Shown here: positions 14,148 to 31,900 of the stretch, in pieces | Layout: every line of letters starts with the position of its first letter | Position numbering within the stretch: position 1 is the first letter of the stretch | Assembly (NCBI RefSeq): GCF_004352825.1 | Contig: NZ_SJRW01000002.1 | Coordinates: forward strand, 186,001-250,000 | Source of the DNA: Luteimonas arsenica | Lineage (GTDB): Bacteria; Pseudomonadota; Gammaproteobacteria; Xanthomonadales; Xanthomonadaceae | DNA: 64,000 bases | Direction: 5' to 3' | Notes under the pieces: generated by a model | Seen by the model: only the letters and a program-made list of their open reading frames with translations | What the model was told of the DNA's origin: nothing | Databases searched by the model: none | Translations under genes and position numbers: made by a program

Positions 14148-14904
14148 CCCAGGCAGGCGCGTGGTCGCTGGGCCGCTCCCAGGTGCGCGGCTCGCGGTCG
14201 ATGCCCGAGGCGACGGCGGCGGGGCGCAGCGCCTCGGAGACCAGGGTCAGGTCGATGCGCAGGCCGAGGTCGCGGCGGAACGCGGCCTGGCGGTAGTCCC
14301 ACCAGCTGAAGATCCCGGCCTCGTCGCTGTGCAGGCGGAAGGCGTCGTGCAGGCCGAGGTCGAGCAGGGCGGTGAGCGCGGCGCGTTCGGCGGTGGAGGT
14401 GAGGATGTGGCCTTCGTTCCAGACCGAGGGGTCGTGCACGTCGCGCGCGTCGGGGGCGATGTTGAAATCGCCCATCACCACCAGCTTCGGATGCCGCTGC
14501 AGCTCATCGGCCAGCCAGTCGCGCACCGCGGCCAGCCAGCGCAGCTTGTAGGCGTACTTGTCGGTGCCGATGTCCTGGCCGTTGACGACATAGAGGTTGA
14601 CGATGCGCACGCCGTCGACGGTAGCGGCAAGCGCGCGCTTCTGCTCGTCCTCGAAGCCGGGGATGCCGTATTGCACCTCGCCGATCGCACGGTCGCGGGC
14701 GAGGATGGCGACGCCGTTGTAGGTCTTCTGGCCGAGGAAGACGCTGCGGTAGCCGAGCGCGGCGAGCGCGTCGTCGGGGAAGCGGGCGTCGTCGAGCTTG
14801 GTCTCCTGCAGGCCGACGATGTCGGGCGCGAAGGCGGCGAGCCACTGCTGCAGGTGCGGCAGGCGGACGTTGAGGGAGTTGACGTTCCAGCTGGCGATTT
14901 TCAC
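14131..14904 (-). CDS. xthA: Exodeoxyribonuclease III, start altered by element insertion
   Basis: This 257-residue EEP-family nuclease has the family's N-terminal MKIASWNVNS, the catalytic LQETKLD, the GDFNIAP block and the C-terminal SDHAPAW. It repairs AP sites and 3'-blocked ends in base excision repair. The start codon is a GTG (14902-14904). The original ATG, its GAGGAT ribosome binding site and the upstream aldehyde dehydrogenase gene now lie 17 kb away at 31900, beyond the integrated element. The first codons are part of the attachment site. Transcription must now start inside the element. The coding region is otherwise intact. Confidence 0.96.
   Translation of the reverse strand: MKIASWNVNSLNVRLPHLQQWLAAFAPDIVGLQETKLDDARFPDDALAALGYRSVFLGQKTYNGVAILARDRAIGEVQYGIPGFEDEQKRALAATVDGVRIVNLYVVNGQDIGTDKYAYKLRWLAAVRDWLADELQRHPKLVVMGDFNIAPDARDVHDPSVWNEGHILTSTAERAALTALLDLGLHDAFRLHSDEAGIFSWWDYRQAAFRRDLGLRIDLTLVSEALRPAAVASGIDREPRTWERPSDHAPAWVTLAD
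14888..14903. repeat. attL: 16-bp direct repeat
   Basis: CAGCTGGCGATTTTCA occurs here and, identically, at 31884-31899. On the minus strand it is codons 1-6 of xthA. The two copies bound the integrase-bearing segment, as expected for the crossover region of a tyrosine recombinase. Confidence 0.9.
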
Positions 14905-14951
14905 GGGTCAAGAAATCTCTTTTCGTATCAGTTAGATAGCTGAAAATCGCC
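14893..14951 (-). promoter_or_regulatory. Potential leader hairpin covering the xthA start codon
   Basis: On the minus strand GGCGATTTTCA (14951-14941) is perfectly complementary to TGAAAATCGCC (14903-14893), which holds the last two bases of the GTG start and codons 2-4 of xthA. The loop is 37 nt. The upstream arm is element DNA, so the hairpin exists only after integration. It could lower xthA translation, or the arm may simply be an inverted integrase core site. Confidence 0.5.
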
Positions 14952-14967
14952 GCGGAAAACTTGGCCC

Positions 14968-14993
14968 AGCTACCCGTCTGGCTACCCAAATTT
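14968..14993. repeat. Left-end paired repeats, possible integrase arm sites
   Basis: AGCTACCC (14968-14975) and GGCTACCCAAATTT (14980-14993) are tandem near-copies about 65-90 bp inside attL. The same pair, in reversed order and with closely matching flanks, lies inside the right end. Matched repeats at both ends suggest arm-type binding sites for the integrase or its directionality factor. Confidence 0.55.
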
Positions 14994-15108
14994 AGAGTAC
15001 TGGGCCACGCCTTTGAGCATAGCAGTGAGCCTGAACGAAGAGAGAGCGGGCTTACCTCAAAAGTTGATAGAACTTGATTTCGAGGATGGCCTCCGGCATG
15101 ATCTTCAG

Positions 15109-16230
15109 ATGACAAAGACCCTTCGCATCGATGCAGTAACGGGGAAGATGCAGGAGAGGGGCTGGACTCAGGCCCACTTGGCTGAGCAAGTGGGCGTGAG
15201 CGCCCAGACCGTTACCAACTGGCTCAAGGGGCGGGATTTTCCCCGACCGAGCGCGTTGCTGAAGCTTGCAGTGACGTTGGGCCTCGGATTCGAGAAGCTG
15301 GTTGACTCCGGAGCATCCTCCGAGCCAATCATCGCCTTCCGCAAGAAGGCCGGAGCAAAGACCACTGACCATCACATCAGCAAAGCCCGTGGCATAGGGC
15401 AGTTGCTGAAGCCGCTGGTGCCCGTTCTTCCTGAGACAAGGCAACTTCGGACCCTGATTACTTCTCCGAGTTGTGAATACGGCCAGCTGCGCAAAGCGGT
15501 TGAGCAGACTCGGTCAGAGTTGGGCATCGGGCAGCATGCGGTTCTGTCCTACAACCACCTCATTGGCCAGTTCAAGAAGAACGCTGCCATCTTGGTCCCC
15601 GTGCTCTGGGGGAAGAAGGGCAATCATGAGAATGCCCTTCACATCCGCCTGCCGGAAGAGGATGTGACCTTCATCTTCCTCAACCTAGACGTCAGGTTGG
15701 AGGACTTTAAGTTCTGGATGGCTCACGAACTGGCGCATGTTTATACGCCGGAGCTTGCCGGAACGGAGGAAGGTGAAGACTTCGCGGATGCGTTCGCCGG
15801 CGCATTGCTGTTCCCGCATGAGTGCGCGGAGAGCGCCTATCGCGAAGCTTGCAGCCAGCCAAAGAGTGCGCTCATCGGCGTGCTAGCTGGGTACGCCGAT
15901 CATCACCAAGTGTCTTTGTACACGGTGCATCAGCAAGTTAAGCGCTTTGCGAAGCAGGCCGGCCTTCCGCTCCTGCCAATGGAAGACAAGACCATCCATC
16001 AGGTTCGGAACAGCACCGCAGGCCCTACTGTCAGCGATGCGCTCTTTGACCCGGCACCTCCCGAGGCAAAGAACTACATTTCCATTGCCAGCTCGGTTTT
16101 CCAGTCGGACTTCTTTACTGCACTGGAAAGGTTGGTCAAGGAGCGCGAAGTCGGGGCCGGCTACATCCAGCAGATTCTGGATGCTCCCCTGAAGGACTCC
16201 GTGTCCCTCCATAGAGCGTTGGCTGGTTGA
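15109..16230 (+). CDS. XRE-family HTH protein with ImmA/IrrE metallopeptidase domain
   Basis: 373 residues from the ATG at 15109; a start at 15013 would add 32 residues with no conserved feature. An XRE helix-turn-helix lies at about 15-50 (TQAHLAEQVGVSAQTVTNWLKG). An ImmA/IrrE-type peptidase domain follows, with HELAH (residues 206-210) and a downstream acidic EEGEDFADAFAGALLFP helix. Such proteins act as regulators, or as antitoxins that may be cleaved or cleave on stress. It overlaps the PIN gene by 4 nt (TTGA), the layout of a toxin-antitoxin or regulator-effector pair. It is divergent from xthA. Confidence 0.88.
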   Translation: MTKTLRIDAVTGKMQERGWTQAHLAEQVGVSAQTVTNWLKGRDFPRPSALLKLAVTLGLGFEKLVDSGASSEPIIAFRKKAGAKTTDHHISKARGIGQLLKPLVPVLPETRQLRTLITSPSCEYGQLRKAVEQTRSELGIGQHAVLSYNHLIGQFKKNAAILVPVLWGKKGNHENALHIRLPEEDVTFIFLNLDVRLEDFKFWMAHELAHVYTPELAGTEEGEDFADAFAGALLFPHECAESAYREACSQPKSALIGVLAGYADHHQVSLYTVHQQVKRFAKQAGLPLLPMEDKTIHQVRNSTAGPTVSDALFDPAPPEAKNYISIASSVFQSDFFTALERLVKEREVGAGYIQQILDAPLKDSVSLHRALAG

Positions 16231-16820
16231 CGCTCGTCCTGCTCGATACCAATGCCTACTTGCGTCTGGCCAAGCGGGTCAGGCCGATGCTGGGTGTGGC
16301 ATTCGGAACGAAAGAGTACGTCCTCACCGTTCTGAAAGATGTGGAAGAAGAGGTCCATCGCAATCCGAACCTCCGGTTCAAGTTCCCGTGGTTTGATGAG
16401 CAGGTATTGGCCGATGAGCGGCTTGCCGCTCGGGTTCGGCTGACACAGGAGCAGAAGACCAGTATCGATGCCGCAGCAAGCGTGCTGCGGGCTTCTGTCT
16501 TGGCGGACCCAATGCGATTCATGGCCGGCGGAGGCTCACCTCCCAGTCCGGTGGACTGCCGTGTGCTGGCCCATGGTTTCGTGAGGGGATGCCTTGTCAC
16601 CACCGATGACCTGAGCATGCACAAGCTGGCGGGTGAGTTCGACATCCGCGTCTGGCACGGCTACGAACTGTTGAAAGCGTTGCTCAATGCAAAGGCCGTT
16701 GATTCGGTGTTGGTCAAGGAAATTTTCGACGCCTTGGAGGCCAATGGCGACCTCCCTGCGAGTTGGCGGGCAGCGCGATACACCAAGTTCCCCAAGATTT
16801 TTAGCACCGCCAAGAAGTAG
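16227..16820 (+). CDS. PIN-like domain protein, probable toxin partner
   Basis: 197 residues read from a TTG start that overlaps the upstream stop. The start must be here because the first PIN acidic residue lies at position 7 (LVLLDTNAYLRL). A later acidic pair in CLVTTDDLSMHKLAG matches the second half of a PIN active site. PIN proteins are Mg-dependent ribonucleases and are common toxins. ImmA/IrrE-HTH plus PIN-like pairs occur in mobile elements. Toxicity is inferred from family and arrangement. A convergent hsdR gene ends 152 bp beyond. Confidence 0.75.
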   Translation: MTLVLLDTNAYLRLAKRVRPMLGVAFGTKEYVLTVLKDVEEEVHRNPNLRFKFPWFDEQVLADERLAARVRLTQEQKTSIDAAASVLRASVLADPMRFMAGGGSPPSPVDCRVLAHGFVRGCLVTTDDLSMHKLAGEFDIRVWHGYELLKALLNAKAVDSVLVKEIFDALEANGDLPASWRAARYTKFPKIFSTAKK

Positions 16821-16972
16821 GAACTGGTCTATCCGCACGGCGGCTCGATGCAGCACGACATCGAACCAGATTGGGATGGGCTGTCCGGCGGTGCAGCGAG
16901 ATTTGTCACCTGTGCCTTCAAGTCATCAGTGTCCAACACCGCGATGACGCCGGGCACCTCGAATAAGTGGCC

Positions 16973-19900
16973 TCACGCTCCCGGTTGGGGTGACTCTGGC
17001 GGTTTCGTGCCGGGGCGATAGGTCGAGTCGAACACCATGTCAGCCAGCCAGCGTTTGAAGTTCGGGTTGTCGCTGAACTGCTTGAACAGTTCGGTATGGT
17101 CGTCCAGCAACTCCAGCACAACGCGGTTGAGCGCCTTGTCGTGCTCCAGCCGCGCGTTCTGCTTGCCGGAGTTGGCCTGTGCGTTCTGATACGCCTTGTC
17201 CCGCGCCACGCGCGTGGGGATTTCCTCGGCAATGACCTTCTTGATCTTGTCAGCGTCGTGCCATTCGATGTTGCCGAACAGGTCGTTGAACTGCCTGATG
17301 ACGTTCGAGAGCCTGTCCAAGTCCGGTTCACCGCCCCCTCCGCCGCCGCCGGGAGGAGGAGGCTCGACGACAGCATCCGCGTCGTCCAGCGCCATCTTCA
17401 TGGATGCGAGCGCCTGCGCCCGATAGCTGTCCATGTCGATAGCCTCCAGCACGCCCTTGGAGAGGTCTTCTTCCTTCGGGGCTGGCAGCTTCGGAATCAG
17501 GAAGTTCAGGAAGATCGACAGCTTCTCCCACCCCGGATGCCCGTAAGGCAGGATCGCCGAGAGGAAGGCGTAGCTGCGCACGAACGCCTTCGCCGTACCC
17601 TTGAACTTGACCTGATCGTCCTCGCCGAGCTTGCTGACGTACTCGGCCACGCAGATATCGAGAATGGGATCAAGCTTGTCCCGGTCGGCACCGGACAGAT
17701 ACAGCGCCACCAATTGGTCCACCTGCTGCGCGCTGTAAACCTGCTGCGCATCCAGCTCGCCCTTGAGGTCGTGCAGCTTGTTCGCGTCGGTTTCGCCGTC
17801 CTGAATCGTGGCGCGGTAATACTCCTGAAATGCCGCTTTTACGGCCTCGGCATTGTCGGCGAAGTCGAGCACGAAGGTGTCCTTCTTCTCCGGGTGTGCG
17901 CGATTGAGGCGCGACAGCGTCTGCACAGCCATAACGCCCGCCAGCGGCTTATCCACGTACATCGTATGCAGCAGCGGTTCGTCAAAGCCGGTGACGAACT
18001 TGTTGGCAACGATGAGGAAGCGATACGGGTCATTCTTCAGCTTGTCCGGAATGTCCTTGCTCGGAAAGCCGTTGAGGTCAGCCTCGGTCTTCTTCGACCC
18101 GCCGACCTCGAAGTCGCCCGAATACGCAACAATGGCCTTGTATGGGCTTTTGATCTCCGCGAGGTAGTCCGACACCTCACGGAAGTAGTCGATGGCTCGG
18201 GCGATGCCGTTGCAGACGACCATCGCCCGCGCCTTGCCGCCGACCTTCTTCGCGCCGATCACCTGCGCGGTGAAGTGATCGACCATGATCTCAGCCTTGC
18301 GGCGAATGGCCTTGTCGTGCGACTCGACGTACCGGCGAATTTTCTTCAGTGCCTTGAGCTTGTCTACCTGTGGATCATCCTCGATGGTCTTGGCGACATG
18401 GTAGAAGCTATCCACCGGCGTGTAGTTGGCGATCACATCGCGGATGAAACCCTCCTGTATCGCCTGCTTGGTGGTGTAGGTCAGTTCCTCCGGCGAGCGG
18501 AACTGCACCTTGTCACCCACCGCCACCCGTTCGCCGAACAATTCCAGCGTCTTTGCCTTCGGAGTCGCGGTGAAGGCGTAGTAGCTGACATTGGGCAGCA
18601 GCTTGCGTAACGCAATGCGCTTTTCGATCTCGGCATTCACCGCATCTTGCGTGGAATCTTCTTCGAAGTCTTCCTCGTCCGTCTTGCCGCCGAGGGCCTG
18701 ATGCATCTTGGCCGTGGTCTTGCCGCCCTGACTGGAATGCGCCTCGTCGATGAGCAGCGCGAACTTGCGGTCGCCAAGGTCGCCCAGCTCGTCGAGGATG
18801 AAGGGGAACTTCTGCACCGTGGTGACGATGATCTTCTTGCCCCGGCGCAGGAAGTCGCGTAGCTCTTGAGCGTTGTCCGAATGGCCGAGGATCGAGGCCA
18901 CATGGTCGTAGCCCTTGATGGTCTTGTGGATCTGAGTGTCGAGCGCGCGCCGGTCAGTTATGACGATGACCGAATCAAATAGCGCCTGCGTCTCGTCCGC
19001 CTCCGTCTTCAATTCTACCAACTGGTGCGCCAACCACGCGATGGAGTTGCTCTTTCCGCTGCCCGCCGAGTGCTGGATCAGATAACGCTTGCCAACCCCA
19101 TCTTCACGGCTTCGACGCAACAGGGCGCGCACCGTGCGCAACTGGTGGAAGCGCGGGAATATCGGCTTACGCCGCTTCTTCTTCCTACCGTTTGAATCCT
19201 CCTCCTCTTCCTCCACCACCTGCGCGTAGTTCTCGATGATGTTGGCGAGCGAGTCCTTTATCAGCACCTGCTTCCACAGGTAATCGGTCTTCAGGCCATC
19301 CGGATTGGGCGGGTTTCCCGCGCCACTGTTCCAGCCCTGATTGAACGGCAGGAACCACGATGCCTTGCCCTTCAGTTCAGTGCAGAAGCGCACCTCGGCG
19401 TCATCGACCACCATGTGCGCAATGCAGCGACCCGACTGAAACAGCAACTCCTTCGGATCGCGCGTGGTCTGGTACTGGACGACGGCGTCCGTGACGGTCT
19501 GCTTGGTCAGCGAATTCTTCAGCTCGAAGGTCAGCACCGGCAGGCCGTTGATGAAGACCACCAAGTCAAGTTCGTTGCCCGAATCGTTGCTGTAGCGCAC
19601 CTGCCGGGTGACGCTGAAGATGTTCTTGCCGAAGGCTTCGGCGGCAGCGGCGTTGCCCGGCGTTGGCAGCAGCTTGTAGAGATCGACCGACACCGGCCCA
19701 TGGCTTACACCCTTGCGCAGCACGTCCACCACGCCACGCTTGGCGATCTCGCCTTGCAGCCGGTGCAGGAACTGCGTGCGCTGGATGCCGTCAGCGGCGA
19801 GATTCAGTGTTTCCACCACCTTGGGCTGCGTGGCTCGCAGGAACTCCAGCAGCTTGGCCACATCCAGCGCCACGTCGCGGTTGTAGTCGGAGGTGCGACC

Positions 19901-20041
19901 CAGCACGTAGCCGCCGGCCGCATAGATCGCCCGATCTTCGCCGGCTGCATCCTCCGGAACGGCCGGATGCTCGGTGATGCCCGCCAGATGGCGCACGATC
20001 AGCCGTTCCAGTTCCTTCTCGCTGGTGTCGGTCGGTTTCAT
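16973..20041 (-). CDS. hsdR: Type I restriction endonuclease, R subunit
   Basis: 1,022 residues, normal HsdR length. The N-terminal PD-(D/E)xK nuclease shows Asp159, Glu173 and Lys175 (LDLVVFINGLPVLTFELKN region). The SF2 translocase has Walker A AGSGKS (Lys330) and a DEAH box (Asp432). A proline/poly-glycine linker at about 893-907 joins the C-terminal domain that docks on HsdM. HsdR pumps DNA and cuts at collision sites when the target is unmethylated. It follows the hsdS fusion gene after 58 nt, the only gap in the hsd genes, so it may have its own translation signal. All key motifs are intact. Confidence 0.97.
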   Translation of the reverse strand: MKPTDTSEKELERLIVRHLAGITEHPAVPEDAAGEDRAIYAAGGYVLGRTSDYNRDVALDVAKLLEFLRATQPKVVETLNLAADGIQRTQFLHRLQGEIAKRGVVDVLRKGVSHGPVSVDLYKLLPTPGNAAAAEAFGKNIFSVTRQVRYSNDSGNELDLVVFINGLPVLTFELKNSLTKQTVTDAVVQYQTTRDPKELLFQSGRCIAHMVVDDAEVRFCTELKGKASWFLPFNQGWNSGAGNPPNPDGLKTDYLWKQVLIKDSLANIIENYAQVVEEEEEDSNGRKKKRRKPIFPRFHQLRTVRALLRRSREDGVGKRYLIQHSAGSGKSNSIAWLAHQLVELKTEADETQALFDSVIVITDRRALDTQIHKTIKGYDHVASILGHSDNAQELRDFLRRGKKIIVTTVQKFPFILDELGDLGDRKFALLIDEAHSSQGGKTTAKMHQALGGKTDEEDFEEDSTQDAVNAEIEKRIALRKLLPNVSYYAFTATPKAKTLELFGERVAVGDKVQFRSPEELTYTTKQAIQEGFIRDVIANYTPVDSFYHVAKTIEDDPQVDKLKALKKIRRYVESHDKAIRRKAEIMVDHFTAQVIGAKKVGGKARAMVVCNGIARAIDYFREVSDYLAEIKSPYKAIVAYSGDFEVGGSKKTEADLNGFPSKDIPDKLKNDPYRFLIVANKFVTGFDEPLLHTMYVDKPLAGVMAVQTLSRLNRAHPEKKDTFVLDFADNAEAVKAAFQEYYRATIQDGETDANKLHDLKGELDAQQVYSAQQVDQLVALYLSGADRDKLDPILDICVAEYVSKLGEDDQVKFKGTAKAFVRSYAFLSAILPYGHPGWEKLSIFLNFLIPKLPAPKEEDLSKGVLEAIDMDSYRAQALASMKMALDDADAVVEPPPPGGGGGGGEPDLDRLSNVIRQFNDLFGNIEWHDADKIKKVIAEEIPTRVARDKAYQNAQANSGKQNARLEHDKALNRVVLELLDDHTELFKQFSDNPNFKRWLADMVFDSTYRPGTKPPESPQPGA

Positions 20042-20099
20042 GCGTCGCCTCTCTCATCGCGCATCATAAAAGCCCTTGACGCCGCACTTTCCGCTGAGA

Positions 20100-22187
20100 T
20101 CAATCCTCCCCATCGGGGTTCTCCTCGTCGGCGCTGCCCACGTCATCCTCACTCAGCGCGGCTAGGTCGTCATCGCTGACCACGTCATCCGGGCCGGGCC
20201 GCCAGCCGCGCAGGTCCACCTGCCCGGTGACGGCATCGGCGATCAGGCGGTCGCGGTACTCGCGGATGAGCTTGATTTCGGCCACTGCCTGTTCGATGGC
20301 CGTGTCCAGCGGGGCGCTTTCAGACTGGATGTGCGCGACGATGGCCTGCTGTTCGGCCACGGTAGGCGGCATTGCAATGGGGAAACGCCCAAGCACGGAT
20401 TCTGCGATGGCCGGGTATGCGATGCCGATGGAGTTGGCCGTCACCCGGTTCACGAAGGCGCTGCTCTGGATGACGTAGCCGAGGTATTCCGGCTCTACGC
20501 CGTTGCCGGGCGTGAGCACCGCGAAGCCCGTGGATGCAATCAGATCGTCGGCTTCCTCGTTCACATACCAGATGGCCTTCAAGTACGTCCGCACGGTGGA
20601 GATGATGGTGTCGCCGCGGCGCAGGACGCGGCGCGCGCGGGATGGCGCAGCTTCGAAGCGGATACGCTCCAATTCCTTCGCCAAACGGCCCGTTTTCACC
20701 GAGCCGATGTCCACATAACGGAACTCAAGATCCGGGGCGGTCTTCTCGCCGAGCGTGCTGGCGTTGAGGCGCACCCAACGCTTGAGCGGCTTCGCTTCCC
20801 AATGCCCCGGCACCTCGCCCAGCCACTCGATACCGGAAAGCTTGAGGTGCACGGACGTATCCAGACCGCGCGTGACGGCGTGGTCGATGATGCGCAGCTT
20901 CTGCTCGGTCAGCAGCGCGATTAGGTCGCGCTTGGCCTTGATGAAGCGGGCGATGTGCGCGTCTTGCGCGCGCAGATAGGCGACGATCTGGTCTTGCTCG
21001 GGGCGCGGGGGCAGCGGAATCTCCAACGCCGCAAAGCGATCCGAGTAGAGCCGCAAGAAGCCCGATGTGCCCGTGCCAAGCCCCTTCGATTCGGAGCGGA
21101 ATAATCCGCGCATCGGCCACGAGCGGAACAGGTGGCCGAGGTACTCGGGGTTGTCGTCGCGTAGCAAGCGGAACACCGCGTAGTCCGGGCTGACCAAGCC
21201 GGGCTGACGATTGCGGAAGAACATCGCGTTGCCCGCCTGCATCCGGTTCAACACCAGTTCGTCTGGTTGCGCCTTCTTGTAGCCGATGAGATCTTCCGGT
21301 GCGATGCGCTTGACCGAAACATCGTTGTGCGGAACCAAGCCACGGTGCATACGCATGGACAGCAGCGTTTCGTCGCCCGTTTTTGTGCGGTCGTCGATCT
21401 CTCGCAGAAAGTTCTTGGCACGAAGCAACGACCAATGCTCCGGCACACGCGGAACCCAACGGGAACGAACCGGGCGATACGCTTCATACTTCGTCGTGCC
21501 TGACGGGGCCGCCGCCGGAGGAGCGGGGGTCTCGACGGTGGCGGCAATATCCGCACCGAACAGGGATCCTTGCTCCCGAGTCTCGGCTTCCTGCGGTAGG
21601 GGTGATTCCGAGGTCACTTCAATCGGACGCCCGAACAGCAGGAATTGTGGAATGTCAGGGGGCGCAACATCGAGGGCCGCATCGCGCCCTTGCTGCTTGA
21701 CCTGTTCGCGCAGTTCCATCAGCAGCCGGCCCAAGACGTTCATGCCAACTAGGGTATCCCCGTCGTCTACGACCTTGGCTCCCCAGAAATCGTCCTTGCG
21801 CGACTCTTCGACGATAGGCCGCTCGCCGGTTCTTAACAGCAGCGCGCTGAAGGTGTTCCAGTTGTTGGCCAGCTTCATACGCAGACTCCAGCGCATGATT
21901 CGAACGCGCACCTGCTCCCAATCAGGACGCGAATCCTTGCGATAGGGCATGCTCCGCATCTTGGCCGTTATCGGGCTGATCTGACCGACGATCATCTTCT
22001 GCACATCGGGAAGATGCGGAAAGCGGCAGACCTGATACAGCGCCTCGGAAGTCAGTATCCGCACCCCACTTACATGGATTGGGTAACCCCCGGCCATGTT
22101 GGAGAGTCCCCCAAACGGCTCATCCGTCTTGAGGAAAACGACGCTCTCCTTCCGGCTGTAGGAACGGGTTTGATCTCTTCCACCCAT
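20100..22187 (-). CDS. hsdS: NADAR domain fused to type I specificity subunit HsdS
   Basis: 695 residues from the ATG at 22187, which overlaps the upstream stop by 1 nt (TGATG) and has GGGAGA upstream; a longer frame to 22403 has no support. Residues about 15-165 match YbiA/NADAR N-glycosidases: GGLSNMAGGYPI, TSEALYQ with the expected catalytic Glu at 48, KDDFWGA (Trp135), and LGRLLMELREQV at the end. A proline/alanine linker (about 166-240) leads into a complete HsdS with two target-recognition domains. These are split by the conserved helix PPRPEQDQIVAYL...EQKLRIIDHAVTRGL, with a second PPTVAEQQAIVAHI repeat. The tail is acidic. NADAR enzymes break N-glycosidic bonds in riboflavin intermediates or ADP-ribosylated guanine. 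Physical fusion to a DNA-recognition subunit suggests action at or on DNA; that is inference. Confidence 0.93.
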   Translation of the reverse strand: MGGRDQTRSYSRKESVVFLKTDEPFGGLSNMAGGYPIHVSGVRILTSEALYQVCRFPHLPDVQKMIVGQISPITAKMRSMPYRKDSRPDWEQVRVRIMRWSLRMKLANNWNTFSALLLRTGERPIVEESRKDDFWGAKVVDDGDTLVGMNVLGRLLMELREQVKQQGRDAALDVAPPDIPQFLLFGRPIEVTSESPLPQEAETREQGSLFGADIAATVETPAPPAAAPSGTTKYEAYRPVRSRWVPRVPEHWSLLRAKNFLREIDDRTKTGDETLLSMRMHRGLVPHNDVSVKRIAPEDLIGYKKAQPDELVLNRMQAGNAMFFRNRQPGLVSPDYAVFRLLRDDNPEYLGHLFRSWPMRGLFRSESKGLGTGTSGFLRLYSDRFAALEIPLPPRPEQDQIVAYLRAQDAHIARFIKAKRDLIALLTEQKLRIIDHAVTRGLDTSVHLKLSGIEWLGEVPGHWEAKPLKRWVRLNASTLGEKTAPDLEFRYVDIGSVKTGRLAKELERIRFEAAPSRARRVLRRGDTIISTVRTYLKAIWYVNEEADDLIASTGFAVLTPGNGVEPEYLGYVIQSSAFVNRVTANSIGIAYPAIAESVLGRFPIAMPPTVAEQQAIVAHIQSESAPLDTAIEQAVAEIKLIREYRDRLIADAVTGQVDLRGWRPGPDDVVSDDDLAALSEDDVGSADEENPDGED

Positions 22188-23221
22188 CAGAGATCGTCTC
22201 CCGTCAGATCGGCGAACATCCTTCTCACCGCTGTCTGCGTATTCGTGGTGCGCGGGAACAGGGGATACCATGGCGCATCTACCCAGAACGCCAGCGGGGC
22301 GTTGTTGGGGCAGTTGCGGTAGGTGACGATAAGTGAGCCGAAGCCCAGCGTTTCCAGCGTCATGTGGCCCAGCGGTCGCTGCGTGGTGCCGAGGTTGGGG
22401 CAAATCTGCCGGATGTGGACACCGGCCTTCAGGAACTCCTGCTCCAACAGAATCTTGGCCGTGTCGTTGGAGAACAGACCCGCAGTGCCAGGGTTACCAG
22501 CGGCTCTGAGCGTCGGCTGGTACTGCATAGCAGCCACGTAGGCTTGCACCGCTGGATCGTTCGGGATCACCGTTGGACGCAGCACGTCCGACGACGCGCT
22601 GTAGGCTCGTCTGTCCTCCAGCACGATGGCGTGCCACCAAGTGATGTCGACGCTCTTTCCCGAAGCTCTGATGACTTCCTGAATCTTGGTGTTCGCGTAG
22701 TACTGCCCGCCACTGTGCTGGGCGATGCAGATCACATGCACCTTGGCCTGAGCGGGCGCGTGGTCACGAACCCATCCTTCCAAGTCGCGCCGCACTCGGT
22801 TACCGGTGAAAATGCCGTCATCCAGATAGATGAAGACATCGCCGCCGCGCCCGCAGCCGTCGATGCCGAATCCGAACTCGCCCGTCAGTTGCTCGGAGAA
22901 CAGGGCCAGCATGTCGGTCTGGCTGTCGCCGCCGCCCTGAATGTCGAGGAAGTTAGCGTTGCACCAGAACTGCTGCACATTGTCGCCGGTGAGCTTCTGG
23001 GTACGGATCGCGCCACGCATGAACTGAGATACTTTCTCCTTCGAGAAGTAGATGTTCTTCAGGACGTGGTCGACCTCTTGCAGGATGGGCAACTGCACGG
23101 CTGCGTCGAACTGCTGTACCCAGCGCTCGACGTGGGCGGGAATGGGCTGCGGGAGCGAGCCGTCCCGGTAATCCTGAATCGTGTTGGCGATGGACGCCAG
23201 TAGGTCATCGCGCTGGCTCAT
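22187..23221 (-). CDS. Phosphoribosyltransferase-like protein (PRTase-CE type) inside the R-M operon
   Basis: 344 residues. A helical N-terminus (WVQQFDAAVQLPILQEVDHVL) precedes a type I PRTase core, whose PRPP loop is FIYLDDGIFTGNR (Asp134, Asp135, Thr139, Gly140). The C-terminal part (SNDTAKILLEQEFLKAGVHIR, then LGFGSLIVTYRNCPNNAPLAFW) matches what I recall of PRTase-CE proteins predicted in bacterial conflict systems. It overlaps hsdM by 4 nt (ATGA) and NADAR-hsdS by 1 nt, so it is translated in step with both. It may transfer a phosphoribosyl group to a base or nucleotide. The substrate is unknown, and a regulatory nucleotide-binding role is an alternative. Confidence 0.8.
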   Translation of the reverse strand: MSQRDDLLASIANTIQDYRDGSLPQPIPAHVERWVQQFDAAVQLPILQEVDHVLKNIYFSKEKVSQFMRGAIRTQKLTGDNVQQFWCNANFLDIQGGGDSQTDMLALFSEQLTGEFGFGIDGCGRGGDVFIYLDDGIFTGNRVRRDLEGWVRDHAPAQAKVHVICIAQHSGGQYYANTKIQEVIRASGKSVDITWWHAIVLEDRRAYSASSDVLRPTVIPNDPAVQAYVAAMQYQPTLRAAGNPGTAGLFSNDTAKILLEQEFLKAGVHIRQICPNLGTTQRPLGHMTLETLGFGSLIVTYRNCPNNAPLAFWVDAPWYPLFPRTTNTQTAVRRMFADLTGDDL

Positions 23222-25596
23222 GCGGGAGCGCCTCCCACGATCTTGTTCAGCAAGCCTTCGGTCTGCTGCTCCAGCTTCAGGATGTCGGCGCGAATTTCCT
23301 CCAGCGACCGTAGCGGCGCGGGCTTGTAGAAGTAGCGGGCAAACGAAATCTCGTAGCCGATCTGGGTCTTATCGCCATCCACCCACGCATCGCTGGCGTG
23401 CGGCAGCACCTCGCGCCGGAAGAATGCCTCGATGCCACCCGGTTCCTTCAGCGGCACTTGCTCGGTGTCGCGCAGGTCAGTGTCCGACTCATACCAGATC
23501 ACTTCGCGGCTCTTGCCATCGCCCACGAGGTAGCGCCCGTCGATGACCGGCTCGAAGTCGTCGCTTGCCTTGAGCTTCTGCCGCTTGGCGACTACCGGTG
23601 GCGCGGTTTCGTCGCGCCAGCTCACGGCCTTGAAGATGGCCTTCTTGTCCGTAGCGCCGAGCTTCTGACCGCGTGCCTTCATCGCCATATCAAACCGCTC
23701 GCGGAAGACGTTGTGGTCCTCGAACACAGCGTCGCCCAAATCCTGATGCGCCAGCCACGCCAAGTCGATCAGCGCCTTGTCACGCTGCCACGTCGCGGCG
23801 TCCAGCAGCTTCTTGCGGCGCTTCTCCGGCACGGCCTTTCTCGCGGGAGCGCTGTCTTCACCGTCCTCGGCTTCGTCATCATCGTTGTCACCGTCGCCCT
23901 TGAGCCATGCTTCGATCTCGGGCTTCAACTTGACGAAGTCGGTGTAGAGTTTGTCGCCGTGCTGGGCGTAGATTTCCGCACGCAGTGCGTCGTCGCCGCT
24001 GGCGAAGCGCAGGGTTTCGATGGCGGCGGGCTTCAACTGGCTTTTCAGGCGCAGCGGGCGCTCGACGGTGATCTTCCAGTAGCCGAAGTCCTGCGTGTCG
24101 AACCATTTGGACTGCGACGTTTCCTGTGCCTCACCCAAGTAGAGGTCGAGGATGCGCTGAATGTCGGCCTCCGCCAGTTCGCAGTTCTTCTTGCCGAGGT
24201 TGCGGCGCAGCGGCTGGAACCACTGGCTGGCGTCGATCAACTGGACCTTACCTCGCCGTTGTTCCGCCTTGCGGTTGGCCAGCACCCAGATGTAGGTGGC
24301 GATGCCGGTGTTGTAAAAGATGTTGAGCGGCAGCGCGATGATGGCTTCGAGCCAGTCGTTCTCCAGCACCCAGCGGCGGATGTTGCTTTCGCCTTGCCCG
24401 GCATCACCGGTGAACAGCGCGGAGCCATTGTGGACGAGGGCGATGCGGCTGCCCACGCCATCGGCAGGCGCGTTGTGCTTCATCTTGGACAGTTTGTTCA
24501 CGAGGAACATGAGCTGGCCGTCGCTGGAGCGCGTGATGAGCTTGAGTTCCGGGTTGTCGCCGTGGCTGACGATAAAGCGCGGATCGTTGAAGCCCTTCTT
24601 TCCGCCCATGCGCTCCAGATCGGTCTTCCAACTCTTGCCGTAGGGCGGATTGGAGATCATGAAATCGAACTCGCGCGAACGGAACTGGTCGGCGGACAGC
24701 GTGGATTTGTCCGCGCCGCCAACGATGTTCTCCGCCGAGCCGCCTTCGCCCTTGAGCAGCAGGTCGGCCTTGCAAATGGCGTAGGTTTCGTCGCTGATTT
24801 CTTGCCCGAACAGATGGATGGAGACTTCCTTGCCATGGTCGTCGGCCAGTTCCTGCAAGGTTTCCTCGGCCACGGTCAACATGCCGCCGGTGCCGCAGGA
24901 GCCGTCGTAGAGCAGGTAGGTGCCGGACTGGATGCGCTCGGCCACGGGCAGGAACAGCAGCTTGCCCATGAGCTTGACCACGTCGCGCGGCGTGAAGTGC
25001 TCGCCCGCTTCCTCGTTGTTCTCCTCGTTGAAGCGGCGTATTAGCTCTTCGAACACGGTGCCCATGCCGTGGTTGTCCAGCGGCGGCAGCTTGATTCGCC
25101 CGTCGGCGTCCTTGACCGGCAGAGGCGAGAGGTTGACCTCGGGGTCAAGGAAGTCCTCGATCAGGTAGCCAAGGACGTGGGCATCAACCAGCTTCTGGAT
25201 CTGGTTGCGGAAACTGAACTTGGTGAGGATTTCCTGCACATTCGGCGAGAAGCCATTGAGGTAGGCGATGAAGTCCTCGCGCAGGCGCTGCCCGGCGGCG
25301 CTGGCCTTGAGCTTGGCCAGCGTGAACTCGGAGACGTTGTAGAAAGCTTGTCCCGCCGCCATGCGCAGTGCACCGTCCTGCTCGGCCACGTTGTGCGCGT
25401 CGAGGAACTTCTTGCGCTCCAGCACTTCCTGTTTGGTCGGCTCCAGCACGGCGTCCAGACGGCGCAGCACGGTGAACGGCAGGATCACGTCGCGGTACTT
25501 GCCGCGCACATACACATCGCGCAGGCGGTCGTCGGCGATGTTCCAGATGAAGTCGGCGACCCACTTGATCTGGCTCTGGTCTTGCTGCTTCGTCAT
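23218..25596 (-). CDS. hsdM: Type I R-M N6-adenine methyltransferase, M subunit
   Basis: 792 residues from the ATG at 25596, preceded by AAGGGGGAGG and overlapping the HTH gene by 4 nt. It has the HsdM N-terminal helical domain (residues about 10-160), SAM motif I DGSCGTGG (about 230) and catalytic motif IV NPPY (Asn316). Beyond the usual 500-520 residues it carries a long C-terminal extension with an acidic Asp/Glu-rich stretch (about 560-590). Long HsdMs of this type are known, so the extension is not a fusion artefact. It methylates adenine at the HsdS target and forms M2S/R2M2S complexes. Confidence 0.97.
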   Translation of the reverse strand: MTKQQDQSQIKWVADFIWNIADDRLRDVYVRGKYRDVILPFTVLRRLDAVLEPTKQEVLERKKFLDAHNVAEQDGALRMAAGQAFYNVSEFTLAKLKASAAGQRLREDFIAYLNGFSPNVQEILTKFSFRNQIQKLVDAHVLGYLIEDFLDPEVNLSPLPVKDADGRIKLPPLDNHGMGTVFEELIRRFNEENNEEAGEHFTPRDVVKLMGKLLFLPVAERIQSGTYLLYDGSCGTGGMLTVAEETLQELADDHGKEVSIHLFGQEISDETYAICKADLLLKGEGGSAENIVGGADKSTLSADQFRSREFDFMISNPPYGKSWKTDLERMGGKKGFNDPRFIVSHGDNPELKLITRSSDGQLMFLVNKLSKMKHNAPADGVGSRIALVHNGSALFTGDAGQGESNIRRWVLENDWLEAIIALPLNIFYNTGIATYIWVLANRKAEQRRGKVQLIDASQWFQPLRRNLGKKNCELAEADIQRILDLYLGEAQETSQSKWFDTQDFGYWKITVERPLRLKSQLKPAAIETLRFASGDDALRAEIYAQHGDKLYTDFVKLKPEIEAWLKGDGDNDDDEAEDGEDSAPARKAVPEKRRKKLLDAATWQRDKALIDLAWLAHQDLGDAVFEDHNVFRERFDMAMKARGQKLGATDKKAIFKAVSWRDETAPPVVAKRQKLKASDDFEPVIDGRYLVGDGKSREVIWYESDTDLRDTEQVPLKEPGGIEAFFRREVLPHASDAWVDGDKTQIGYEISFARYFYKPAPLRSLEEIRADILKLEQQTEGLLNKIVGGAPA

Positions 25597-25799
25597 GCCT
25601 CCCCCTTGGGCTTGCCGTCGCCTGTCGTTTCTCGCGCAATCCACTGCTCAAGATCGGCCTTGCGAAACCGCCAAGTGCCGCCGAGCTTGAACGCAGGAAT
25701 CTTCTTGTCCGCCGCAAGCCGATAAACCGTGCGCTTGCCTGCCTTCAGGTAGGCGGCCACCTCGTCAATCGTGAGGATTTCGTCCGGCGGGTCACTCAT
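25593..25799 (-). CDS. Small excisionase/MerR-like HTH protein heading the hsd operon
   Basis: 68 residues with a winged-HTH of the helix_turn_helix_17/excisionase type: ILTIDEVAAYLKAGKRTVYRLAADKKIPAFKLGGTWRF. GAGGTAAAGC precedes the ATG. Its stop overlaps the hsdM start (ATGA). Because it is the first gene of the operon it could act as a controller protein for hsd transcription, or as a recombination directionality factor for the element. The sequence cannot decide between these. Confidence 0.88.
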   Translation of the reverse strand: MSDPPDEILTIDEVAAYLKAGKRTVYRLAADKKIPAFKLGGTWRFRKADLEQWIARETTGDGKPKGEA

Positions 25800-26245
25800 C
25801 TGCTTTACCTCGTCGTCTTGCAGTGCGGCTGGTCTACTGGCGAATCATGGCATAGGACTTCGAGATCTGGCAGACTTGGGCAAACTTGGCAGCATCAGTG
25901 ATGCCTGACCGGCTTGGATGGAGAGCTATGGCATCCGGCTACGAGGCGGCTTGAGAGGCGTTGCCGCTGTACCAAATCCTGTCCATCGCCAAGCTGGCCC
26001 GCATCGCGTGTACGTGACGGAGTCGAGCTAAAATCCGCTCGTCTGGCGGCATGGCGAGCCTTGTCATCCATACCCCTTGAACCGGCGGTGTCCATCGTCG
26101 CGCCGGTTGCCGGACACCCGGTCATCGTGAAAGCCAGAAAAATCGTACTCTGCTGCGCCTCTTTCGGGCGGTTGACGGTGGAGTCTTGGCTTCGGCTTAT
26201 GCGTCCCCCCACGATGACCACTTTTTCACCCAGTTGATGGCGAAC
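25800..26245. other. Upstream region of the hsd operon
   Basis: 446 bp without a supportable gene; short frames on both strands lack family features and ribosome binding sites. It should hold the hsd promoter. Two DNA-binding-like signals sit together: tandem ACTTGG repeats 11 bp apart (25874-25890) and a GCATCA/TGATGC inverted repeat (25892-25904). These are candidates for the operator of the 68-residue HTH protein. Confidence 0.45.
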
Positions 26246-26857
26246 TCAACTGGCCTTCCTCATCTTGATGCCGTGGGGCGAGAAGTTCAGTCGGCTGGCG
26301 AGCTGCAGATAGCGACGGACATGGCGCAGGAACTCCGCTTCGCTCATGCCATCGGGTTCGGCGAGGGAGCCAAGCAACGGCCCTTTGTCGCCCAGCCTTT
26401 CTCGCAGTTCCCAAATCTGACGCATCGTGCGCTTCGCCGCGCTGTCACGCTGGCAGCCGTAAGTGACAGGCTCTGGCAGTCCCTTCCGGCTGCAGAAGTG
26501 CCACAAGCCCGGGTAGCGGTAGAGCTTGCGCGCGAGGCCCCCTGTCACAGGACATACGAAGCACCACCGCTGGCCGCCGCGAGGCATGGCGATGGGTGCA
26601 AGCTCCACGGACTGCTCGATCTTCATGCCATCGGCGCCCCGGTGCTCGATGGTGAGCAAACCGGCCGTAACCCCAACCTCGGCGCGCAGGATCGTCTCCG
26701 CGATGGCGCTGCCGCCGCGCAGGTGGCGAATCCCGACCACCCGCCTCGCCTCACCGCGCCTGTTCCACCCTGCCGGCTGCCGGGCAAGGCTGAGGCTGTC
26801 GATGCCGATGAAGGTTGCCCATTCCAGCGGTTTCCGGTTTCGAGCTTTGCCGGCCAT
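26246..26857 (-). CDS. Conserved hypothetical protein of mobile elements, Cys-rich
   Basis: 203 residues from the ATG at 26857; an in-frame GTG at 26869 is an alternative. The centre has WCFVCPVTGGLARKLYRY followed by WHFC and YGCQRDSAAKRTMRQIWELRERLG. This is a Cys-containing pattern I recall from uncharacterised proteins of proteobacterial islands, perhaps a degenerate zinc ribbon. No enzymatic motif is visible. It lies downstream of the replication genes, and its role in the element is unknown. Confidence 0.65.
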   Translation of the reverse strand: MAGKARNRKPLEWATFIGIDSLSLARQPAGWNRRGEARRVVGIRHLRGGSAIAETILRAEVGVTAGLLTIEHRGADGMKIEQSVELAPIAMPRGGQRWCFVCPVTGGLARKLYRYPGLWHFCSRKGLPEPVTYGCQRDSAAKRTMRQIWELRERLGDKGPLLGSLAEPDGMSEAEFLRHVRRYLQLASRLNFSPHGIKMRKAS

Positions 26858-26883
26858 ACCTAAATCCACATTGGGGCCGCCTC

Positions 26884-27168
26884 TTACCGCTTGCCCTCAT
26901 CGTCGTAGAGCCAGTACCCGGACTCCCGCTTTGCGACAAGTTCGGGCAGGTCATCCCTCTTGGCAATTTCATCCGCAAGGAACGCCCGCAGCCTTGTCTC
27001 TGCATCCAGCGTCAGGATGAACCTGCTTGCCAGAAATACTATTGCGTCCTCCTGATCTTCACCCTTGAAGGAGTACATCTCGCCACACCGTTCAACCCAG
27101 TCCAGCGGCCTGACGTGATTTTGCCAATCAATTTTCGTGCCCTTCGCGGTCTTCTTCTTGGTCATCAT
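26884..27168 (-). CDS. Hypothetical protein, 94 aa
   Basis: A small soluble, charged protein with a Lys-rich N-terminus and mixed alpha-helical content. AAGGAACCC lies 3 nt before the first of two ATGs. It is probably co-transcribed with the neighbouring 203-residue gene (26-nt gap). I do not recognise the family. Confidence 0.6.
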   Translation of the reverse strand: MMTKKKTAKGTKIDWQNHVRPLDWVERCGEMYSFKGEDQEDAIVFLASRFILTLDAETRLRAFLADEIAKRDDLPELVAKRESGYWLYDDEGKR

Positions 27169-27301
27169 TTGGGTTCCTTGTGGTTGGGTTACGCGCCGGC
27201 TATGCGCTTCCAGTCGGCGCGGTCCAGCGAGGTCAGGGGCAAAGGCTCATCGGCACCAGAAGTTCAGATACTCACTCAAGGAGCATCTCCTTCGTTGTGG
27301 C

Positions 27302-29202: not shown

Positions 29203-29380
29203 CGTTCGCCTCCTGCATCAAGCTCTCGCGGAGGCGCAGCACCGCGCGGCGGGCACCGTTGAGGTTCACGGCGACATCAGCGGCGTAGTCGGCATCGGGG
29301 CGGTTGGCCAGCGCGTGGAGCTGGTTGCGGATGGCGTCACCGATCTCCACGAGGCTTGCTTCGGTGATTGCGGCGCTCAC
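29186..29380 (-). CDS. Small hypothetical protein, 64 aa
   Basis: Read from a GTG at 29380 that overlaps the AlpA-like stop by 4 nt (GTGA), and itself overlapping the replication gene by 17 nt. The sequence (VSAAITEASLVEIGDAIRN...) is helical and acidic, with no recognised family. The tight coupling on both sides supports it being real; a longer frame to 29527 only repeats the alpA region out of frame. Confidence 0.6.
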   Translation of the reverse strand: MSAAITEASLVEIGDAIRNQLHALANRPDADYAADVAVNLNGARRAVLRLRESLMQEANDAGAG

Positions 29381-29733: not shown

Positions 29734-29790
29734 TGCTGGTTATTGCCAGCGATTAGGCGTCAGCCACCATCCCCAGAATCTACCGTCCCC

Positions 29791-29813: not shown

Positions 29814-29825
29814 GCGGTCTGTTGG

Positions 29826-30404: not shown

Positions 30405-30426
30405 GTGTTGAGGCTTTCAGAGAGGT

Positions 30427-31701
30427 TCAGGCGGCGGGACGGAAAGGCACGACGTTGGATGCCGGTGTTGGGCTAGGCTCACCCTTTTCACAGGCGACGA
30501 TGAAGTTGGCCCACTTCTCCAGCGCTTCGCGGCGTTCAGGGATTTCTTCGCGCACGTCGTAGACTGCCTCCATTCCCTTCAAGACATGGTTGAGGGCAAC
30601 CTCGGAGATTTCCCGAGAGATGCCCATGTTTCTCAGGTGGCCTTTCGCCGTCGAGCGAGTGTCATGGGGCGTGAACTTGCGGATTTCGATTTCCTTGCGG
30701 TTGAAGGCGCGCTGGATGGCCGCCCACAGCGTGGTTTCGACCGTGTGAGTGTCGCCGCCCTTGTTGCGCCTGCGCCGCTCCTGCCGGGCTGGAAGCAGGT
30801 ATTCCGAACCGCCGGAAAGCTCAATTAGCTCGCGGAACCAGCCGACGACAGTGGGGGTCAGCGGCACCAGAAAGCCGGTACGGGTCTTCACGTTCTCGTC
30901 TGGCACCCACCAGACTCCGCGCTTGAGGTCGATGTCGGCCTTCTTCGCCTTGACCAATTCGCAGGTGCGAACGCAGGTGGCCAGCAGAATGCGGAAGGCG
31001 AGCGCGTTCTCCATGCCGATGATTTCGATGTCCGGAAGGAGCTTCCGCAGTTCGTCTTCGGAGAGCATCACGCGCTTACGAATCGGCGGCCGGGCGCCCT
31101 TGAGGGCGTTCATCTTGATGCCGGTGCAGGGGTTGGCCGAAACGATCCGCAGGGCAATAGCGTGATCGAACAGCTGGGAGAGTGTGGTCTTGACCCGCCG
31201 GGTGATCGTCCATGTGCGCTTGATGTCGATCAGGACCGACACAATGTCGGTCGTGGTGACGCGCTGGACCTCGCGCGAACCGAGGCGGGGAAGCACTACG
31301 TCGTCGAGGTCATACCCCCTGTACTTGATCGTCCCCGACGCGAGACTTGTCTCCGTCAGGCACTTCTCCCGGTAGTCGGCTACCAGCTCACGCATCGTCC
31401 ATGCGGCCATGGCGCGAGTCTTCTGCTCCTGCTTCTCGGCAGCCGGATCGCGCCCTTCGTCGATAGCGACACGGTGGGCGCGAGCCTTTTCGCGGGCGGA
31501 GGCGAGTCCGAGGTCGGGGTAGTTCCCGAGGGTGAGTTCCTTGCGTCGCCCGCCCGTGCGGTAGCGAAGCACCCAAGCAGCGGTTCCACTCTTGGAGAGG
31601 GTGAAAGTCAGACCGTCGCCGTCGGACTTTGCTACCGACTCGCCCTTGGCGATCCAACGCTTGATCTGAATGTCGCTAAGAAGATTAGTGGTCTTTGCCA
31701 T
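30427..31701 (-). CDS. Tyrosine recombinase (P4-type integrase)
   Basis: 424 residues from the ATG at 31701 (MAKTTNLLSDIQIKRW); the frame is open to 31752 but that adds an unconserved stretch. The N-terminal DUF4102-like arm-binding domain contains GLTFTLSKSGTAAWVLRYR and RRKELTLGNYPDLGLASAR. The catalytic set is Arg245 (CVRTCEL), His346-x-x-Arg349 (PHDTR), His372 and Tyr381 (VYDVREE). All are present, so the enzyme looks active. It lies next to attR, and its target is the 5' end of xthA. Confidence 0.97.
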   Translation of the reverse strand: MAKTTNLLSDIQIKRWIAKGESVAKSDGDGLTFTLSKSGTAAWVLRYRTGGRRKELTLGNYPDLGLASAREKARAHRVAIDEGRDPAAEKQEQKTRAMAAWTMRELVADYREKCLTETSLASGTIKYRGYDLDDVVLPRLGSREVQRVTTTDIVSVLIDIKRTWTITRRVKTTLSQLFDHAIALRIVSANPCTGIKMNALKGARPPIRKRVMLSEDELRKLLPDIEIIGMENALAFRILLATCVRTCELVKAKKADIDLKRGVWWVPDENVKTRTGFLVPLTPTVVGWFRELIELSGGSEYLLPARQERRRRNKGGDTHTVETTLWAAIQRAFNRKEIEIRKFTPHDTRSTAKGHLRNMGISREISEVALNHVLKGMEAVYDVREEIPERREALEKWANFIVACEKGEPSPTPASNVVPFRPAA

Positions 31702-31740
31702 GCTGTCGCGCCCCCATGGGTAGCTAGTTGCCAGATGCTT

Positions 31741-31767
31741 CTGGCTACCCACTTAGCTACCCAATTT
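31741..31767. repeat. Right-end paired repeats, possible integrase arm sites
   Basis: CTGGCTACCCA (31741-31751) and AGCTACCCAATTT (31755-31767) match the pair inside the left end. They lie just upstream of the int start, so they could also place int under autoregulation. Confidence 0.55.
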
Positions 31768-31841: not shown

Positions 31842-31870
31842 GGCGCAACGACGTGAAACGTCAAGAGGTG

Positions 31871-31900
31871 CTAGAAGAAATTGCAGCTGGCGATTTTCAT
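31871..31900 (-). pseudogene. Displaced 5' stub of xthA with native ATG
   Basis: Read on the minus strand, ATG AAA ATC GCC AGC TG is the authentic xthA start, preceded by GAGGAT and by the aldehyde dehydrogenase stop 46 nt upstream. After these codons the frame enters element DNA and stops (MKIASCNFF, TAG). It is the scar left when the element split the gene's start from its body. Confidence 0.85.
31884..31899. repeat. attR: 16-bp direct repeat
   Basis: Identical to 14888-14903. The base after it (T at 31900) completes a native ATG on the minus strand, whereas the left copy is followed by C, giving GTG. Confidence 0.9.

Follow-up and report, generated by a model that had tools for sequence, protein, structure and literature searches.

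A NADAR-HsdS fusion and its phosphoribosyltransferase partner in a type I restriction-modification operon of Luteimonas arsenica

Why should the DNA-recognition subunit of a type I restriction-modification (R-M) system begin with a domain from a family of N-glycosidases? The question is raised by a 64,000-nucleotide stretch of Luteimonas arsenica DNA (contig NZ_SJRW01000002.1, positions 186,001 to 250,000; hereafter the window), in which a NADAR domain and the specificity subunit HsdS form one protein. We have confirmed that this fusion is real. As judged from curated protein profiles, its NADAR domain and the product of the preceding gene are the two proteins of the anti-phage system DS-32, set within a type I R-M operon. 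The operon occupies 25596-16973 of the minus strand in the order hsdM, PRTase-CE gene, NADAR-hsdS, hsdR (PRTase, phosphoribosyltransferase; TRD, target-recognition domain):

23218..25596, minus strand: hsdM, type I methyltransferase subunit, 792 amino acids, ATG at 25596 (Pfam N6_Mtase and HsdM_N; PADLOC MTase_I, E value 1.7e-255)
22187..23221, minus strand: PRTase-CE phosphoribosyltransferase, 344 amino acids, matching DS-32 protein 1 (PF24390, E 3.2e-61; NF053875)
20100..22187, minus strand: NADAR-HsdS fusion gene, 695 amino acids (Pfam, PADLOC, NCBIfam, AlphaFold2, Foldseek)
21699..22136, minus strand: NADAR domain, residues 18-163; the matching DS-32 protein 2 profile spans residues 8-189 (PF08719, NF053876)
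21492..21698, minus strand: C-terminal NADAR helix and linker, residues 164-232, with predicted disorder from 193 (AlphaFold2)
20193..21491, minus strand: HsdS part, residues 233-665, comprising TRD1, coiled coil, TRD2 and coiled coil (PADLOC Specificity_I; AlphaFold2; Foldseek 1yf2, 7vs4 and 5ybb)
16973..20041, minus strand: hsdR, type I restriction/translocase subunit, 1022 amino acids (Pfam HSDR_N, SWI2_SNF2, T1R_D3-like)

The fusion protein and its phosphoribosyltransferase partner

The first-pass annotation of this locus had described a NADAR domain placed ahead of two TRDs in one frame, with its own start and ribosome binding site, and this description was borne out. The frame 22187-20100 is open over 695 residues with no internal stop. 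Pfam places PF08719 at residues 18-163 (79.1 bits, cut-off 35.1, E 6e-22) together with two Methylase_S stretches, and PADLOC finds a type I specificity subunit across residues 232-665 (E 2.6e-96). Glu48, Trp135 and the LLMELREQ helix lie where they had been placed, and the start is an ATG that overlaps the preceding stop by 1 base at 22187 (TGATG), with GGGAG upstream. The AlphaFold2 model (mean pLDDT 77.7, pTM 0.57) consists of a NADAR fold, a linker, TRD1, a coiled coil, TRD2 and a second coiled coil, and the linker at residues 193-232 is predicted to be disordered (pLDDT <50). When searched against the Protein Data Bank with Foldseek, the HsdS part matched HsdS structures (1yf2, E 2.9e-17) and the N-terminal part, for which a structural check had been proposed, matched YbiA (2b3w, TMt 0.70) and an ADP-ribose-bound NADAR (8bau, TMt 0.67); in a profile search the same two structures were matched at E 1.1e-15 and E 9.7e-5. 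The NADAR domain model (21699-22136) also resembles Esub1 (8vsq and 8vsr, TMt up to 0.72), of which 8vsr is a co-crystal with a protein named Prx; no paper on Esub1 was found in the open PubMed Central (PMC) literature.

Relatives were collected by a contig scan with the window's NADAR part, which gave 72 loci (the window's own copy, L001, is excluded from counts), and from a class sample of 369 genomes. In the latter, 28 genomes had some match to NF053876 and 4 were over its cut-off, namely the window's and three others that were added to the 72 to make 75; the NADAR matches in the other 24 of the 28 genomes fall below the cut-off and are left unclassed. A frame join or sequencing artefact is ruled out because the same fusion is found in 37 of the 75 relatives and in 5 of 34 viral-contig loci, and the alternative that the domain is always a separate gene, its join here being artefactual, falls with it.

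The remaining genes form a complete type I set, hsdM, a two-TRD hsdS and hsdR all being open and in one operon by Pfam, PADLOC, AlphaFold2 and Foldseek. The hsdM and PRTase genes share 4 bases (ATGA), and 58 bases lie between the end of hsdS and the start of hsdR. The genome holds a single NADAR and a single HsdS. Pfam detected no riboflavin- or nucleotide-pathway gene within the operon. No Rfam match for structured RNA was obtained at gathering scores within 14000-33000, promoter and terminator scans yielded no more than shuffled sequences did, and no tRNA was found in the window.

The product of the gene upstream of the fusion scores 417.3 bits against NF053875 (DS32_1_antiphage, cut-off 250), and residues 8-189 of the fusion score 268.4 bits against NF053876 (DS32_2_antiphage, cut-off 240). 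Because both proteins exceed the NCBIfam cut-offs, we assign the pair to DS-32 residing in the R-M operon, and because its NADAR is fused to HsdS instead of being a separate small protein, the pair is a variant and not the type form. The gene order is that of DS-32, the PRTase followed directly by the NADAR with the 1-base overlap. The first-pass annotation had made no mention of this upstream gene; the fusion, the active site and the TRDs stand, whereas the domain is no orphan, being the NADAR of DS-32 with its partner PRTase gene directly upstream. A DarT-type ADP-ribosyltransferase was rejected as the partner, since the neighbour is PRTase-CE by Pfam. This PRTase carries YLDDGIFTGNR, which fits the phosphoribosyl pyrophosphate (PRPP)-binding motif with its paired acids. 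D134, D135 and G140 are invariant in 70/70 PRTases (70 of 72 rows, the stub L044 and the broken L063 having been dropped), and the AlphaFold2 model has a pLDDT of 92.5 and a pTM of 0.89.

YbiA enzymes cleave the phosphoribosylamine bond of riboflavin intermediates. In the alignment of the window's NADAR with its 75 relatives, E48, R87, W90, E127, D132 and W135 are each invariant in 76/76, position 55 is Arg in 74 and Lys in 2, and position 94 is Arg in 72, Lys in 2 and Asn in 2. E48, R55, W90, R94, E127, D132 and W135 align to E43, K50, W89, R93, E125, D130 and W133 of the P. nicotianae NADAR in the alignment to 8bau; all seven of the latter contact ADP-ribose (PMC11543638). In ADP-ribose-bound NADAR, the counterparts of E48, R55, W90, E127, D132 and W135 either contact the ligand or are important in catalysis (PMC11543638), and NADARs have been reported to hydrolyse ADP-ribosyl-guanine in DNA (PMC11543638, PMC11125620) and to cleave N-glycosidic bonds of both riboflavin intermediates and ADP-ribosyl-guanine (PMC11543638). 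The features of the YbiA type, a last-strand Glu (E127), the Glu of the SE motif (E48) and phosphate-contacting Trp residues (W90 and W135), are present in all 76. NADARs linked to DarT1 (BC4488) differ in having Asp in the last strand where the window's has Glu, and its partner is PRTase-CE. An identity as a riboflavin-intermediate N-glycosidase was rejected, as the window protein scores 66.7 bits against TIGR02464 (cut-off 73.7); among its relatives the NADAR of L047 passes (77.1) and that of L067 fails (58.6).

Relatives, cassette-free loci and the island

The 75 relatives divide, in shares that are no census, into 37 NADAR-HsdS fusions, 9 proteins with a tail of ~1000 amino acids, 8 with an extension of ~130 amino acids (7 of them cyanobacterial), 1 with a DUF4365 tail and 20 stand-alone NADARs. 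The order hsdM-PRTase-NADAR.hsdS-hsdR occurs in 34 of the 37 fusion loci, directly and on one strand in 32 and with longer DNA in L074 and L075; the remaining three loci (L002, L009 and L032) are truncated at the ends of their contigs. A PRTase is present in the locus of 71/75 relatives and ends right at the NADAR in all save the broken L063. The four without one are L009 and L032, at contig ends, and L043 and L073. When the search was started from the PRTase, a NADAR followed directly in 34/34 viral-contig loci, with PRTase identities of 25-94% and many near-copies, and in 3/3 genomes with a PRTase over the cut-off (398 searched). The window PRTase matched 3 of 72,556 plasmid records, of which the two inspected each had a separate NADAR gene, and gave nothing at E 1e-5 by tblastn against 50,697 phage records. 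A search of 60 other relatives, of which 36 belong to the same genus as the window, met no copy of the full fusion.

The stand-alone NADAR of L049 has no other Pfam domain and PRTase-CE is the sole one in the PRTase of the unfused pair in L035, so there are forms of the pair that lack DNA-recognition domains. Neighbours of unfused pairs were scanned with Pfam in L035, L042, L050, L054, L064, L072 and L073. For one prophage-type pair, L119, 63 of 5,426 E. coli genomes gave a match, and in 43 of these the coverage was 80% or more; among the 30 matches listed, 2 were named 'anti-phage protein' and most others 'phosphoribosyltransferase-like' or hypothetical plus 'NADAR family protein'. Four E. 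coli loci were inspected, and they hold two whole pairs, one PRTase split by an insertion sequence (IS) with a whole NADAR, and one PRTase fragment at IS1 with no NADAR. All four lie 3' of phage replication gene P, one after an extra gene. For another such pair, L128, megablast found no match among E. coli genomes.

Fusion to a DNA-modification protein is not confined to HsdS. The tail was a DUF1156 methyltransferase in 5/5 proteins tested among the 9 ~1000-amino-acid-tail loci. On the NADAR tree the HsdS label requires 5 changes, at least 4 of them forced by well-supported branches, gains and losses being indistinguishable. Neighbours were scanned for two of the nine loci, L030 and L047. In each, the PRTase and NADAR-DUF1156 genes are preceded by a gene for a DrmD-like helicase and followed by a DUF499 gene, with intervening genes in L047. 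The helicase, methyltransferase and DUF499 proteins fall below NCBIfam cut-offs, and the Pfam matches to DUF1156 and DUF499 are above theirs. A DUF1156 methyltransferase with a DUF499 ATPase is the layout of BREX-related (BR) systems (PMC12839542).

Several further arrangements were observed. Two tandem PRTase genes precede a NADAR fused to DUF4365 in L067 (6891-10656), and an nSTAND3 NTPase gene lies downstream of the stand-alone pair in L072 (10643-14188). L013 has a 598-residue GmrSD_N gene between hsdM and the PRTase gene (6105-7898); genes of similar size (598-600 amino acids) occur at this joint in 11 fusion loci by size, the domain scan covering L013, and the GmrSD_N gene is possibly a third defence module. 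L111, a 90 kb viral contig, has a PRTase followed by a 1360-residue NADAR protein, the size of a DUF1156 fusion. L044 and L063 share one cyanobacterial genome, and in L063 both PRTase and NADAR are in pieces. A disrupted MT-A70 methyltransferase gene stands just before the prophage PRTase-NADAR pair in E. coli L73, L191 (3437-5865).

HsdM was searched in the class sample and found in 40/274 genomes at E 1e-60, including the window's own and the fusion-bearing G200. Twelve of the 40 were examined, a set that leaves out the window's own genome, G200, G196, G209 and lower scorers, and neither PRTase nor NADAR was present in any of the 12 HsdM regions; that of L180 showed HsdM only. L176 is 82% identical to the window in HsdM, 85% in HsdR and 62% in HsdS, with TRD1 at 91% and TRD2 at 27%. 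Its hsdM runs straight into hsdS, the start of its HsdS corresponds to the end of the window's linker, and what the window has in addition at this joint is the PRTase gene, the NADAR domain and the linker. L177 (HsdM 82%, HsdR 83%, HsdS 45%) likewise has no cassette at the locus. Because these close type I relatives lack the pair, the PRTase-NADAR unit is, on this comparison, an optional cassette at the type I locus. One of the 12 genomes, G217, has a stand-alone NADAR of the same family on another contig.

Among the window and 11 close relatives (66 pairs), mean identity is 90% for the NADAR, 59% for TRD1 and 38% for TRD2 (minimum 11%). The median dN/dS of the NADAR is 0.08 (45 pairs, window plus 9 relatives, Nei-Gojobori). 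The NADAR is under strong purifying selection and is kept while specificity changes around it.

The operon is carried by an integrative island of roughly 17 kb (14888-31899). Between 15 and 32 kb the GC content is 57-64%, down from 69-74%, with steps at about 15.0 and about 32 kb:

14131-14904, minus strand: xthA-like gene, named by eye with no family search
14888..14903, no strand: 16-base direct repeat, copy 1, left island end, at the 5' end of the xthA-like gene and at the GC step
30427..31752, minus strand: tyrosine integrase of the operon's island (Phage_integrase, Arm-DNA-bind_3)
31884..31899, no strand: 16-base direct repeat, copy 2, right island end (repeat and GC step)

Beside hsdR, at 15013-16820 on the plus strand, lies a gene for a helix-turn-helix and ImmA/IrrE-type peptidase protein, RmrA-like by PADLOC, which overlaps a 197-residue gene without a Pfam match. 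A similar gene was seen by eye between NADAR-hsdS and hsdR in L011.

Candidate mechanisms

We tentatively favour the view that a DS-32 cassette was inserted at the hsdM/hsdS joint and that a writer/eraser pair, with its eraser tethered to HsdS, makes the R-M complex a guarded trigger. The cassette would have entered a mobile type I operon, its second protein becoming the N-terminal domain of HsdS. The PRTase would attach to a nucleobase or nucleic acid a phosphoribosyl group taken from PRPP (or a ribosyl group supplied by a related donor), and would harm the cell if unopposed. The NADAR would hydrolyse the resulting N-glycosidic bond and so restrain the PRTase, and its tether would let this restraint accompany every assembled R-M complex, one per HsdS, so that how much eraser there is, and where, would follow the R-M complexes. 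A phage that occupies, inhibits or titrates the complex could then tip the balance, and the PRTase would halt the infection, so that restriction is backed by a second layer of defence, an abortive one. A pair that writes and erases a ribosyl-5-phosphate mark is suggested because a transferase with a PRPP-type motif nearly always adjoins the NADAR, and in DarT1-NADAR and YarT-YbiA the NADAR serves as the antitoxin to a base-modifying transferase (PMC11543638, PMC11125620).

A number of observations weigh against this proposal. Position 49 is Ala throughout the 76 NADARs and His in YbiA. Arg55 stands where a phosphate-contacting NADAR lysine is expected (K50 of the P. nicotianae protein), and it is a caution for activity because the K95R form of the E. 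coli C7 NADAR, which retained hydrolysis in vitro, failed to rescue cells (PMC11543638). The PRTase model had no Foldseek match to solved structures at E 0.001; the best matches were uracil PRTases, weak at E 3.8e-3 over 74 columns. A profile search reached PyrR, along the PRPP loop, with an E value of about 0.1; it was outranked by an EF-hand protein (E 0.0047) over another part of the PRTase, a match that we take to be chance. L073 has a NADAR and no PRTase match, L043 has no PRTase in the ~0.75 kb upstream, and in L044 the NADAR is intact and the PRTase reduced to a stub. In L097 a PRTase-CE below the cut-off is fused to an OLD-like TOPRIM domain, with no NADAR in the short locus. The shares of the architectures are biased, as the 72 genome loci were found with the NADAR part of the fused protein and many viral loci are near-copies. 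A toxin-antitoxin character of DS-32 is not stated in the available text of DefensePredictor (PMC13092281). In its fullest form, in which the R-M complex carries an eraser of a putative nucleic-acid or nucleobase phosphoribosylation, phage interference frees the toxin and both type I and BREX-related systems use the arrangement, the proposal seems to us rather doubtful.

Alternatively, the two enzymes may work jointly as effectors, not as toxin and antitoxin, and form or break down a metabolite of the nucleotide type (PRPP, a modified base or a riboflavin-like intermediate), with the fusion to HsdS allowing an R-M complex bound to unmodified phage DNA to start the reaction. This is unlikely in our judgement, yet it accords with the close pairing of the two genes, the weakly PyrR-like PRPP motif, the reported cleavage of riboflavin intermediates as well as ADP-ribosyl-guanine by NADARs, and the finding that type III-A retrons typically have a PRTase-like gene as their effector (PMC12548924). 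The TIGR02464 scores fall on both sides, L047 being over the cut-off and the window protein and L067 under it, and the lack of a riboflavin- or nucleotide-pathway gene in the operon speaks against it.

The first-pass annotation had suggested a sequence-directed glycosidase or a sensor of ribosylated or modified bases; on this reading the TRDs steer the NADAR to particular DNA sites, where it would act as such a glycosidase, as an eraser that protects host sites or as a sensor of ribosylated bases. The activity of NADARs on ADP-ribosyl-guanine in DNA, the predicted disorder of the linker and the second junction of a NADAR to a DNA-methylation protein, DUF1156, are consistent with such steering. 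However, because the NADAR is ~90% identical in the 12 close sequences while TRD2 drops to 11%, it is not tuned to one site; the pair also exists without DNA-recognition domains (L049, L035), and steering leaves the PRTase unexplained. While the fusion, active site and TRDs of that suggestion hold, nothing that we found favours it over a writer/eraser pair, and we consider it quite unlikely.

Least probable is an absence of functional coupling, with DS-32 having landed in the operon, lost a stop codon and brought two independent defences into co-inheritance: two close type I relatives do have hsdM, hsdS and hsdR without the cassette, the pair is unfused elsewhere and the whole unit lies on a mobile island, but among the 75 relatives a NADAR between hsdM and hsdS is unfused in 0 and fused in 37, fusion to different modification proteins recurs, and the NADAR is under strong purifying selection, though this is equally expected of a useful uncoupled domain.

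Should the guarded-trigger proposal hold, it would describe a general way to wire a killer to the recognition of self and non-self DNA, and phosphoribosylation of bases, if that is the chemistry, would join the known ADP-ribosyl modifications as a new one. What triggers DS-32 can now be tested directly, the R-M complex being an obvious sensor, and the window and L176, with and without the cassette and 91% identical in TRD1, are close to a ready-made natural comparison.

Comparison with known systems

No description of a NADAR-HsdS fusion was found in the open PMC literature among the matches listed, a search that stood apart from subscription papers, including the 2012 paper naming NADAR, and from the DefensePredictor supplement. 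The three matches to 'hsdS' in PMC11543638 were rejected as evidence of a fusion, being strain genotypes in its key resources table. The term 'PRTase-CE' was not found in the same literature, and PMC7159879, considered as a possible source, had no PRTase or NADAR match. The earlier statement that no characterised system has this design therefore holds for the fusion within the literature searched; it does not extend to the PRTase-NADAR pair, since that already has a name as an anti-phage system.

The pair resembles DS-32 (NF053875, NF053876) in that both proteins are over curated cut-offs, PRTase first and NADAR second. It differs in that HsdS here carries the NADAR as its N-terminal domain and hsdM-hsdS-hsdR encloses the pair, whereas in three E. 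coli loci the two genes are separate and lie behind replication gene P of a lambdoid prophage. The name probably originates from DefensePredictor, where systems are given DS-n numbers and both NADAR and PRTase are mentioned, the available main text being without 'DS-32' itself (PMC13092281). Among 53 clinical isolates of P. aeruginosa, 11.32% have been reported to carry DS-32 (PMC12735699).

DarT1-NADAR and YarT-YbiA are alike in placing a NADAR with a conserved active site beside a base-modifying transferase (PMC11543638, PMC11125620), and differ in that the partner here has a PRPP-type motif and is not an ADP-ribosyltransferase, and in the fusion to HsdS. BREX-related systems share the helicase/DUF1156/DUF499 setting of L030 and L047; NADAR and PRTase were not found in the available main text of PMC12839542. 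An anti-phage pair known in free-standing form thus appears to be plugged also into DNA-methylation defences, through HsdS in type I systems or through the DUF1156 methyltransferase in BREX-related ones. Some proteins annotated plainly as HsdS or DUF1156 methylase would accordingly conceal a second defence.

As in other type I systems, the operon comprises hsdM, a two-TRD hsdS and hsdR; it differs from them by two added enzyme parts, one of which is fused to HsdS, and L176 and L177 lack both at the locus. Type I loci are also known to embed the anticodon nuclease PrrC, an abortive second defence linked to the R-M complex. The enzymes of the window are different ones, and here the fused partner is HsdS itself.

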